A stretch of 35,877 bases of DNA from a virus. Made by a program: the position numbers and the translations under genes. Location of the stretch: IMG/VR virus record IMGVR_UViG_3300025131_000187, positions 1-35,877 of that record; one strand, written 5' to 3'. The stretch's first letter is position 1; the number at the start of each line of letters is the position of its first letter. Under the pieces are notes generated by a model. It was not told the origin of the DNA, did not search any database, and saw only the letters and a list, made by a program, of their open reading frames with translations. Shown piece by piece: positions 18,020 to 20,498 of the stretch.

Positions 18020-18850
18020 ATGTCTGAAAACCCATTATCTGAATATTTTAAAAAACCCGGCATATATGTTAAACTTCCTAGTGAAGGAAATTATTATGAC
18101 GAGGATATTAATCTTACTTCGACAGGTGAAATAGAAATTTTGCCTATGTCTGCTAAAGATGAAATGCAATTTAAGTCTCCTGATGCCTTACTTAATGGTG
18201 AAAGTTTAGTTAAAGTTATAACTAGTTGTGTTCCTGGAATTAAAAATCCTAGAGAAATCCCATTACCTGACCTTTCTGTTATATTAGTCGGTTTACGAAT
18301 TGCAACATACGGAAATGATATGGCTGTATTTGCAACTTGTACTAAATGTGAAAATAGAGATGAACTAACATATGATATTTCTCGTATGTTAGATAATATT
18401 AATTTAATAACTATAGAAAATACAATATCCATAAAAGATGCAATAATTTATGCAAAACCGTATACTTTAAATTTACATACCCGAGCATCTATATCAGCAT
18501 TTGAACAATCAGTACTTATGACTAAAATTGATGCAACTGATCAGCCAGAAGAAGAATCAATAAAACAATTAGCTGAAGGATACGCAAAGATTACATCGTT
18601 AAATTTTGAATTATTAGCCGATTCTATCATAAAAGTTATATTACCAAATGATATAACTGTTACTGATAACGAACACATACGTGATTGGATAGTTAATACT
18701 GATAAAGCAACATACGATGTAATACAAAATTTTGTTGTTAATACTCTAAACGAAGAAAAAGTAAATAATAATTTTCAACATACTTGTTCAAAATGTAATT
18801 CAGAATTTTCGTCTGATATTGATTTTGATCCTACTTCGTTTTTCGGCTAA
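18020..18850 (+). CDS. gp26: Baseplate hub/tail assembly protein, T4 gp26-like
   Basis: The protein has 276 residues against 208 in T4. The start MSENPLSEYFKKPGIYVKLP, then LPMSAKDEMQFKSPDALLNG and VPGIKNP, matches the T4_baseplate (gp26) family. Unlike the T4 protein as I recall it, two CxxC pairs are present, C107/C110 and C256/C259, which could form a zinc ribbon. In T4 gp26 is needed to build the central hub; related proteins act as tape-measure chaperones. A GGAGG ribosome site and an exact late promoter precede it. Its stop lies 5 bases before a TTG-initiated frame in the minus-one phase. Confidence 0.8.
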   Translation: MSENPLSEYFKKPGIYVKLPSEGNYYDEDINLTSTGEIEILPMSAKDEMQFKSPDALLNGESLVKVITSCVPGIKNPREIPLPDLSVILVGLRIATYGNDMAVFATCTKCENRDELTYDISRMLDNINLITIENTISIKDAIIYAKPYTLNLHTRASISAFEQSVLMTKIDATDQPEEESIKQLAEGYAKITSLNFELLADSIIKVILPNDITVTDNEHIRDWIVNTDKATYDVIQNFVVNTLNEEKVNNNFQHTCSKCNSEFSSDIDFDPTSFFG

Positions 18851-18855
18851 GGCTT

Positions 18856-19071
18856 TTGCGTCTAGATGACCAAGAAATCGGTCCTTTTCTAGAACAACAC
18901 GAAAAGGATGCAGAGGCCATAATTAAAGAGATTTCGCAATTAGTAATATATGCTAATCTTGGATACCAAGAAGCATGGCATATGTCTGCTAAAGAAAGAG
19001 ATATTCTCGTGTCTTCATTAACTGATAAATTAAAAGCGGAAGCAGGAAAACCTGCTAATGATCAACTATAA
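18856..19071 (+). CDS. Small helical protein after gp26, possible frameshift extension
   Basis: The visible frame has 71 residues from a TTG at 18856 and consists of two or three helices (EQHEKDAEAIIKEISQLVIY, then AWHMSAKERDILVSSLTDKL). The AWHMS-ERD-L pattern resembles the second part of tail-assembly chaperones, which in many phages is made by a minus-one frameshift. The TTG has only AAGG three bases upstream, a poor initiation site. The frame is open back to 18829 and overlaps gp26 in phase minus one, with GTTTTTC at 18838-18844 inside the overlap. It could thus be a gp26 extension. It overlaps the convergent HAD gene by 10 bases. Confidence 0.65.
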   Translation: MRLDDQEIGPFLEQHEKDAEAIIKEISQLVIYANLGYQEAWHMSAKERDILVSSLTDKLKAEAGKPANDQL

Positions 19072-19565
19072 CCTATTTGTTTAAGTTGTCTAATTGTACT
19101 ATTTGCTGAAGTATGTAAAACTCCAATACCACCCGCTGAGTTAAATTCTGATATATTTTTTCTATGATCATCTATTAAAAGATTTGGGCGTTTATCTTGT
19201 CTGTCTATTGCAAAAAGTTGTTTTTCATTTCTAAAAACTACATTAACCCTGTCCTGAGGATGTCCAAATAGTTGTTGCATCCATTTCATTTTATCAGCAC
19301 CAGCAGTAGGTATTCTAAATTCGTCTTTAGGTTTAGCTGTTAAAATAATTGGTTTATAAGGTTTTATAAAATTCCATAAAGTATGAGCATCAGGCATTGG
19401 AGGTAATCTAAGAAATATGTCTTGAGGCATGTCAGGCCAGTCTTTATTGTTAAAGTTGTCGCCAACTAAAGACATTGTGTACTTATGAAAATCAGCTAGA
19501 ACGCCATCCATGTCGCAATAAATCTGAGGAGTGTCAAACTCTGTAATAATTTGTTTTGTTTTCAT
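19062..19565 (-). CDS. HAD-family 5'(3')-deoxyribonucleotidase-like phosphatase
   Basis: The protein has 167 residues. Motif I is DMDGVLADF with nucleophile D18 and acid/base D20; motif II is ILTAKP with T76; motif IV is LLIDDHRKNI with D132/D133. This matches the small NT5C-type nucleotidases, which remove phosphate from (deoxy)nucleoside monophosphates. Similar genes are frequent in T4-like phages, where they may tune nucleotide pools. Here it follows the structured 405-base leader and shares the operon direction of the DHODH-like gene. The substrate cannot be deduced. The start is the first ATG after the leader. Confidence 0.8.
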   Translation of the reverse strand: MKTKQIITEFDTPQIYCDMDGVLADFHKYTMSLVGDNFNNKDWPDMPQDIFLRLPPMPDAHTLWNFIKPYKPIILTAKPKDEFRIPTAGADKMKWMQQLFGHPQDRVNVVFRNEKQLFAIDRQDKRPNLLIDDHRKNISEFNSAGGIGVLHTSANSTIRQLKQIGYS

Positions 19566-19970
19566 TTCTACGCTATTTACGATGAGCTAACGCTCATCGG
19601 ATCTTTCAGAAACAAGTTTCTTCAGATCAATAATACCTTATATACTTTACATACTGTATTTAACTAAATTTTAATTATTTCCTGAGTGTCTAGTCACACT
19701 TAGCCTGTTTAAGGCTAAGTTAACTATTTCCTTCGGACATAGCACATTCTAATAGAACAACCGTTTGAAAACGAAAGTTTCGTTTTCAAAATATAGGTAA
19801 GGGCGGTTAGGCTGTACCCTTTTATGTTCTGCTTACCAACGCAGGCCTATGTAAAGCAATTAGATCTACCTTACAGGCCATGCAGGTTCCAAAGTTGTCA
19901 GGAGAGCCTGCTCGTTATTTTCTGTTTTGCCAACGGAGATCTGAACGGGCGTACCCGTTCTCAACCGGTC
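19566..19970. ncRNA. Candidate structured RNA in a GC-rich gene-free region
   Basis: No gene fits these 405 bases. G+C is about 48% over 19801-19970 by my count against roughly a third nearby. Perfect or near-perfect stems follow each other: CGATGAGC/GCTCATCG (19580-19599, loop TAAC on plus), ACTTAGCC/GGCTAAGT (19698-19720), a C(TTCG)G tetraloop at 19731-19736, a 27-base palindrome (19764-19790), GGTAAG/CTTACC (19796-19837), GGCC-TGTAA/TTACA-GGCC (19844-19879), GCAGG/CCTGC (19882-19911) and GAACGGG/CCCGTTC (19943-19960). TTCG and TAAC loops on the plus strand hint at a rightward RNA, but the flanking genes all run leftward. It could be a free RNA, a leader or an origin. No tRNA, tmRNA, RNase P or group I intron signature was found. 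Confidence 0.5.
19764..19790. repeat. 27-base near-perfect palindrome
   Basis: Two 13-base arms, TTTGAAAACGAAA and its reverse complement, are separated by one base. It could be a protein-binding site, a cruciform or an RNA hairpin with an 11- to 12-base stem. It sits in the middle of the structured gene-free region. Confidence 0.85.
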
Positions 19971-20498
19971 TTACGACAATAGCGGCTGTATGCCATTAAT
20001 TGAGTGGTGTTTTACTGGAGCCTGATTTAATTCCCAAAAGTCTTCGTAGCCTGTGATTACCCAATCTTTGTATATAACGTGCCGTATAGTAGTAAATGAA
20101 GTGTTTAATAATTGTTCTTGAAAGCCTATGTATTTGCCTTTACGATTAAATTTCAGTATTAGTAAGTTTAAGTCATTTTCTTCAGCCACATCTAGTAACT
20201 GTTCTGTCCATTCGTCTAATAATCTAACATCACCAAGACTTAATAATTGGTGAAATGGAAAATCTGCATATGATTTACATTCTACGTTAAAATATTTCCA
20301 CTCGTCGGGTGGTATTATGTCTCCTCTGAAAGACTGTATTTGTCCCTCGGATAAAAAATCTTTTCGTACTACATTAGAGCCGCCAACATAAGCACCCGAC
20401 GACGGAGTTCTTACAAAACTCTCGTCGTACAGTTCGGATAATTCTTTTGCAACATCTCGTTCAAATGAACTACCTTTAATTTTGCTTTTACTAGGCAT
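19971..20498 (-). CDS. PD-(D/E)xK-family nuclease
   Basis: The protein has 175 residues. The N-terminal helix GSSFERDVAKELSELY (E13), then VRTPSSGAYVGG, RGDI with D60, and VECKSY with E73 and K75 form the PD-(D/E)xK nuclease core of the Holliday-junction resolvase/restriction-like superfamily. A C-terminal domain ending in a basic-aromatic tail is unassigned. It overlaps the DHODH-like gene by 8 bases (ATGCCTAG) and is downstream of gp46/gp47. A recombination or DNA-end processing role is therefore likely, but junction resolution and host-DNA degradation cannot be distinguished. Confidence 0.75.
   Translation of the reverse strand: MPSKSKIKGSSFERDVAKELSELYDESFVRTPSSGAYVGGSNVVRKDFLSEGQIQSFRGDIIPPDEWKYFNVECKSYADFPFHQLLSLGDVRLLDEWTEQLLDVAEENDLNLLILKFNRKGKYIGFQEQLLNTSFTTIRHVIYKDWVITGYEDFWELNQAPVKHHSINGIQPLLS

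Follow-up and report, generated by a model that had tools for sequence, protein, structure and literature searches.

A large pseudoknotted RNA family with paired variable segments in uncultured aquatic T4-like phages

A gene-free interval in the window

The window, which is the whole 35,877-nucleotide stretch of DNA analyzed (IMG/VR virus record IMGVR_UViG_3300025131_000187), contains 405 bases at positions 19566-19970 that are the exact interval between two minus-strand genes, a HAD/deoxyribonucleotidase gene (19062-19565) and a RusA-like gene (19971-20498), and the question raised by the locus is what occupies them. A sequence-only reading had suggested a new structured RNA on the basis of the missing gene, a rise in G+C, and dense inverted repeats, and all three observations hold. 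The right half, put at about 48% G+C, has a fraction of 0.485 (positions 19800-19999) compared with approximately 0.30-0.34 in the surroundings, and where at least seven inverted repeats including a 27-base palindrome had been claimed, ten of 8 bases or longer are present. The weight placed on the palindrome was wrong, as it is lineage-specific; its two perfect 13-base arms around a 1-base center are confined to the closest relatives, are decaying in L002 and L003, and are missing from L083, L084, L088, and L095. The features of the locus are as follows.

19580-19990, minus strand: whole structured RNA as inferred, conserved in L001-L003 and L083-L095 (z -7.0); 5′ end uncertain by approximately 20 nt
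19971-20498, minus strand: RusA-like Holliday junction resolvase, upstream gene (phrog_244, 1.4e-19)
19062-19565, minus strand: HAD 5′(3′)-deoxyribonucleotidase, downstream gene in the window lineage only (phrog_2643, 4.1e-24)
18020-18850, plus strand: gp26-like baseplate hub gene, convergent, the syntenic marker for the survey (phrog_150)
19764-19790, no strand assigned: 27-base palindrome, a lineage-specific insert outside the conserved RNA (inverted-repeat scan and relatives)

The minus strand of the gap folds more stably than 100 of 100 dinucleotide shuffles, with a minimum free energy of -135.9 kcal/mol compared with -97.4 ± 5.5 kcal/mol (z -7.0), and the plus strand also folds better than its shuffles (z -5.4). 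The assignment to the minus strand rests on G-U pairs, which would read A-C on the opposite strand; in a 67-sequence alignment these number 16 at one pair of helix H4 and 5 and 8 at pseudoknot pairs. All 44 matches in the hub-selected survey described below lie on the same single strand. A 52-amino acid open reading frame (19824-19982, plus strand) is not kept in relatives, and the longest frames of seven relatives vary in place, strand, and length; with no frame conserved across them, a protein-coding reading is rejected. Taken as a whole, there is almost certainly a structured non-coding RNA of approximately 400 nt on the minus strand at 19580-19990, a statement that covers both its existence and its strand.

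The proposal of a structured RNA is thus upheld, with abundant compensatory changes and no conserved frame; lack of the former or presence of the latter was to have refuted it, and both were checked and neither was seen. The plus strand, favored for its C(UUCG)G and UAAC tetraloops, was the wrong choice, and taking the gap as the limits of the RNA was incomplete, because the 5′ end extends approximately 15-20 nt inside the RusA open reading frame and overlaps its stop codon. At the other end, approximately 15 nt separate the RNA from the HAD start codon in the window and its nearest relatives. The absence of a tRNA, tmRNA, RNase P, or group I intron signature is borne out by ARAGORN, which finds no tRNA or tmRNA in the window, and by the Rfam search that had been recommended, which gives no window match at the gathering score and nothing credible up to E 10. 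Models of group I and group II introns, RNase P, known ribozymes, and tmRNA (Rfam or ARAGORN) are likewise unmatched, and intron and tmRNA readings are rejected on that ground.

Distribution of the RNA

The first relatives were viral contigs fetched by the HAD and RusA proteins. The closest share the intergenic region at 67-99% DNA identity (BLASTN), and more distant versions occur in L096 and L099. The conserved string GGUACnGCnnAACCGCC was scanned across IMG/VR, and a slightly relaxed pattern is found at 120 places in the loci collected, 83 of them non-redundant and also having the flanking stem and the upstream motif (L217 was later excluded). This stem and context filter was applied since the first DNA pattern mixed true homologues with chance matches.

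An unbiased survey used 79 viral loci chosen solely by the gp26-like baseplate hub protein. The RNA is present in 44 of the 79, with 34 matched by covariance model R1, which describes the core over 116 positions, and ten more by the broader model R2, and every match runs convergent to the hub gene. The earlier scans had already turned up eight of the 34 contigs. Among the 35 loci without a match, 13 stop within approximately 1 kb of the hub gene, so that many of the negatives carry no information. Searches of whole phage records of up to 347 kb, most of them fragments, give one match per positive record, and no RNA match occurs in the large phage records G005, G010, G011, G017, and G020. Two adjacent model matches are seen in L184 (10596-10745, plus strand), perhaps a split or duplicated core.

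The RNA family is common in uncultured aquatic T4-like phages. When 50,697 phage records were searched by BLASTN with four RNA versions and two fragments of the core, only chance matches were returned, and the isolates nearest by GIY-YIG or hub protein (Melnitz-3, phiN3, ACG-2014f, Phosso, Atu_ph07, and PA5oct) have no model match. The same locus, baseplate hub to gp46, in the cultured jumbo phages PA5oct (L246, 7525-9039) and Phosso (L244, 8233-9247) holds large structured stretches with little annotation (z -3.1 and -5.3, respectively) and no model match; these could be diverged homologues or a different RNA. Elsewhere in one RNA-carrying phage (L154, 13570-13650, plus strand) there is an Rfam freshwater-2 RNA (RF02980).

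Structure of the conserved core

The family layout consists of helix H1, a variable helix H2, hairpin H3 with GCGUU(R), hairpin H4, two modules with the consensus ~UGACU-N-CUC/UCU-R flanking a strong hairpin, a tandem-GA hairpin, and a terminal hairpin. The parts of the window RNA are listed from the 5′ to the 3′ end.

19929-19987, minus strand: 5′ domain with closing stem GCC (19984-19986)/GGC (19929-19931), counterpart of the RF01718 3′ half in freshwater members by eye only
19968-19977, minus strand: small hairpin GUC-GUAA-GAC holding the RusA stop codon, its stem invariant among close relatives
19797-19913, minus strand: conserved core, model R1 match (93.5 bits, E 3e-21)
19882-19911, minus strand: helix H1 (GCAGG/CCUGC) and inner H1b, up to four Watson-Crick types per pair
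19844-19879, minus strand: long helix H2 of freely variable sequence, folding in 67 of 67 aligned sequences
19829-19844, minus strand: hairpin H3, CUGC-GUUGGUAA-GCAG, with GUUGG (19836-19840) the 5′ side of the pseudoknot
19799-19821, minus strand: hairpin H4, AAGGG-UACAGCCUAACCG-CCCUU, with CUAAC (19806-19810) the 3′ side of the pseudoknot; outer pairs of four types, no exceptions
19725-19746, minus strand: module 1 (direct repeat D1), ending in variable segment AGGAAAUA (19725-19732), concerted with module 2
19698-19720, minus strand: apical hairpin ACUUAGCC-uuaaaca-GGCUAAGU between the repeats (comparison of relatives)
19676-19698, minus strand: module 2 (direct repeat), ending in variable segment AGGAAAUA (19676-19683), concerted with module 1
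19600-19628, minus strand: tandem-GA internal-loop hairpin (outer stem-UGA-inner stem-GAA-outer stem), same layout in 44 of 53 homologues compared with 5.7 expected
19580-19599, minus strand: terminal hairpin CGAUGAGC-guua-GCUCAUCG (inverted repeats and relatives)

Alignments A4 and A5 were fitted to the model and are biased toward its structure. In A2, a MAFFT-only alignment of 44 non-redundant sequences not fitted to the model, 98.8% of the proposed pairs form compared with 35-55% when the partners are slid. The value for the 67 aligned homologues is 98.4% (slid controls 35-55%), and for 31 distinct sequences selected by the hub protein and not picked by an RNA motif it is 97.5% (38-61% slid). 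In A2, each of the four Watson-Crick types occurs, with no broken pair, at three H1 positions, one H4 position, and one H1b position. The outermost H1 pair is broken in eight sequences. Helix H2 is folded in every sequence despite differing sequence, with a mean energy over the 67 sequences of -11.7 kcal/mol compared with -5.2 kcal/mol in mononucleotide-shuffled copies.

The loops of H3 and H4 form a covarying loop-loop pseudoknot in which GUU(R)(N) of H3 pairs with the H4 loop. The first search pattern fixed AACCGCC, leaving only the outer two pseudoknot pairs free to vary at first; in the hub-selected set, which is free of this limit, an inner pair changes from U-A to C-G in six sequences. 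The next pair is G-C, A-U, or G-U with no exception, the outer pair occurs as five types with seven mismatches, and one pseudoknot pair is broken in two sequences. A possible extra tertiary pair that crosses the pseudoknot is seen at columns 95 and 141 of A5 (46 G-C, 15 C-G, and 5 C-C). By eye, H3 of L133 is like the GTPase center of 23S rRNA; the loci scanned have no rRNA model match.

Paired variable segments

A segment of 7-10 nt, termed R, occurs twice in nearly every member, after (A)CUC and after (A)UCU, flanking the apical hairpin. Its two copies are nearly identical inside a genome and differ between genomes, as illustrated by AGGAAAUA in the window, GGGGAAUA in L083, ACCACAG in L110, AGAUGAU in L154, and GUGUCAAG in L291. 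Across 31 non-redundant genomes the mean match score is 7.35 within and 4.83 between genomes, and the total for own copies is 228 compared with 152 ± 7 when permuted, a value reached in none of 20,000 permutations. The permutation ignores kinship between genomes, which would if anything raise the between-genome matches.

No intramolecular complement of R exists at a conserved place in the RNA, which argues for a partner in trans. Genome-wide enrichment of R is absent in three of four phage contigs tested and in the window, making a many-site target inside the phage genome unlikely. In G001 (L263-L269) the R core GGTGAAG occurs 33 times compared with 9.0 expected (3.7-fold), which may reflect codon usage.

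Genomic context

In the phages the recombination operon runs gp47, gp46, and a nuclease gene and has the RNA at its end, usually convergent with the gp26-like hub gene. The nuclease gene is RusA-like in the clade of the window and GIY-YIG in most others, and a small protein is often encoded between gp46 and the nuclease gene. One such protein, in L128 (cluster 3), is encoded approximately 929 to 719 bases ahead of the GGUAC motif and has a match to the histone H1-like Hc1 family (PF07432, 1e-10). HAD follows the RNA only in the closest clades. Other clades have a different gene in that position or one on the opposite strand, and the HAD genes of other phages have no RNA nearby. A TTGAC-N-TATA promoter lies upstream of the RNA in 9 of 55 homologues compared with 0.02 expected. 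In the clade around L110 such a promoter precedes the RNA and the GIY-YIG gene is divergent, so that the RNA there is probably its own transcription unit, the promoter being recognized by consensus only.

The RNA is not confined to phages, as it has chromosomal copies. Of 399 genomes from one bacterial order, which was reached via a Betaproteobacteria MAG, three have an above-cut-off match to RF01718, the Rfam entry for Polynucleobacter-1 RNA, and one copy lies at 1.72 Mb within a 1.95-Mb contig. In all three of the bacterial loci L422-L424 RF01718 and the core occur together. Each bacterial copy is divergent from a DUF6641 gene (PF20346), and two are followed on the same strand as the RNA by a tyrosine recombinase of approximately 200 amino acids. 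The chromosomal copies are listed below.

L426, 11600-12196: chromosomal copy, divergent from DUF6641
L427, 8130-8768: chromosomal copy, divergent from DUF6641
L424: chromosomal copy, divergent from DUF6641

Their R segments (AACAAAAG, AGCGAAA, and GGCGAAAG) obey the within-genome match rule as well. DUF6641 is also the neighbor of a weak fourth place in L425, which at 25.8 bits is below cut-off. Model R2 matches only 3 of 18 DUF6641 loci, and one of these matches is weak. The L427 region also has an SNF2/Mrr-type gene. Five marine MAG contigs match too; we infer that these are probably phage contigs binned with bacteria.

Relation to Polynucleobacter-1

Polynucleobacter-1 RNA was described by Weinberg in 2010 (PMC2864571). 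In 14 of 19 loci scanned, an RF01718 match lies 5′ of the core and ends 16-18 nt upstream of it, showing that RF01718 is the 5′ domain of this larger RNA in freshwater members. The remainder of the RNA past this domain matches no Rfam family. The window itself is below the 37-bit cut-off of RF01718 and gives no match even at E 10; its 5′ domain, with the GCC/GGC closing stem, a small CC/GG hairpin, and a further hairpin, resembles the RF01718 3′ half by eye only, and it is not filed under RF01718 for this reason. The window RNA is a member of a large RNA family whose full form had not been assembled before, and literature searched on Polynucleobacter-1, large phage non-coding RNAs, and DUF6641 does not describe the full RNA. 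The earlier suggestion that the RNA is new is partly right, the freshwater 5′ domain being already known as Polynucleobacter-1.

Discussion

The reading we slightly favor (probability about 0.55) is that of a trans-acting RNA showing two R copies to a two-fold partner; it is inferred, without expression data. A promoter belonging to the RNA itself would drive its synthesis in at least one clade, and in the window lineage the RNA would probably arise via read-through, processing, or both. The partner to which the two R copies are offered would have two equivalent binding sites, being either a dimeric protein of phage or host origin or a pair of molecules of one target RNA, and a change of partner would select a change of R, requiring both copies to change together. 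Action in trans, equally inferred and without expression data, is the firmer component and is probable; the symmetric partner is the weaker one, and the balance tips a little against it. The genes beside the chromosomal copies (DUF6641 and the tyrosine recombinase) are unlike the phage neighbors, and no single protein partner is thus evident. In the window lineage, where the RNA is enclosed by an operon and a stop codon falls within its 5′ domain, action in cis remains conceivable. In a bolder version the R segments would be interchangeable guides by which the RNA binds a nucleic acid target at two sites, and would direct recombination or a nuclease together with RusA, GIY-YIG, or, in islands, the tyrosine recombinase; we hold both parts of this version to be very improbable.

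Among the rival explanations, an ornate phage RNA that assembles into homo-oligomers like GOLLD and ROOL, with the repeats as intermolecular contacts, has in its favor the size, the elaborate fold, the loop-loop pseudoknot, and the phage location. It is unlikely, however, given that no Rfam match to GOLLD or ROOL exists, the repeats are not self-complementary, a conserved complementary loop was not found, and proximity to tRNAs is not shown. We also doubt that the RNA is a 3′ element of the recombination-operon mRNA serving stability, processing, or termination and guarding the end that faces the convergent baseplate operon. The conserved place between convergent genes at the operon end, the terminal hairpin at the 3′ end, and the overlapped RusA stop codon in the window agree with such a role, but the complexity and conservation are far above those of a terminator, one clade has a divergent nuclease gene and a promoter for the RNA itself, and the chromosomal copies adjoin unrelated genes.

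A ribozyme or mobile intron-like element using the repeats as cleavage or splice sites would fit the pseudoknotted core, the direct repeats around a segment, and the tyrosine recombinase after two chromosomal copies. This is highly improbable, as group I, group II, RNase P, and known ribozyme models are unmatched and the RNA is a single copy at a fixed place and not scattered. The remaining two alternatives, both raised by the sequence-only reading, can be practically dismissed. A cis-regulatory leader or riboswitch of the HAD gene is suggested only by the RNA ending shortly before the HAD start in the window and closest relatives, and it fails because the downstream gene varies or is convergent in other clades and HAD genes of other phages lack a nearby RNA. 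A DNA element such as a replication origin or R-loop site could be argued from the nearby replication and recombination genes and the palindrome, but the pairing preserved by compensatory changes is of the RNA type, with G-U occurring on a single strand; conservation does not extend to the palindrome; and nothing emerged in support of an origin.

The covariation is exceptionally clean for a large pseudoknotted RNA, and the model can be used for annotating many contigs. For the favored trans-acting reading, the concerted variable segments offer a concrete, testable handle on partner binding.

Several known systems bear comparison. GOLLD and ROOL, which form RNA-only cages via kissing loops (PMC12286853), are also large, ornate, structured phage RNAs of unknown function, but they differ in sequence and structure, with no match to the Rfam models of GOLLD, ROOL, or OLE in the window or the relatives scanned, and in genomic place; the present RNA is smaller than GOLLD, and its paired variable segments have no mention for GOLLD or ROOL in the sections of PMC12286853 bearing on them. 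The abundantly expressed non-coding RNA of approximately 800 nt in the lytic phage ICP1 (PMC7567579) similarly occupies a large stretch without open reading frames, but in another phage group and at the start of the lysis cluster. Polynucleobacter-1 covers 141 positions, the only piece previously catalogued of an RNA found in T4-like phages and bacterial genomic islands, whereas the full RNA extends approximately 300 nt beyond it, and the orphan entry RF01718 becomes part of a full-length phage RNA.
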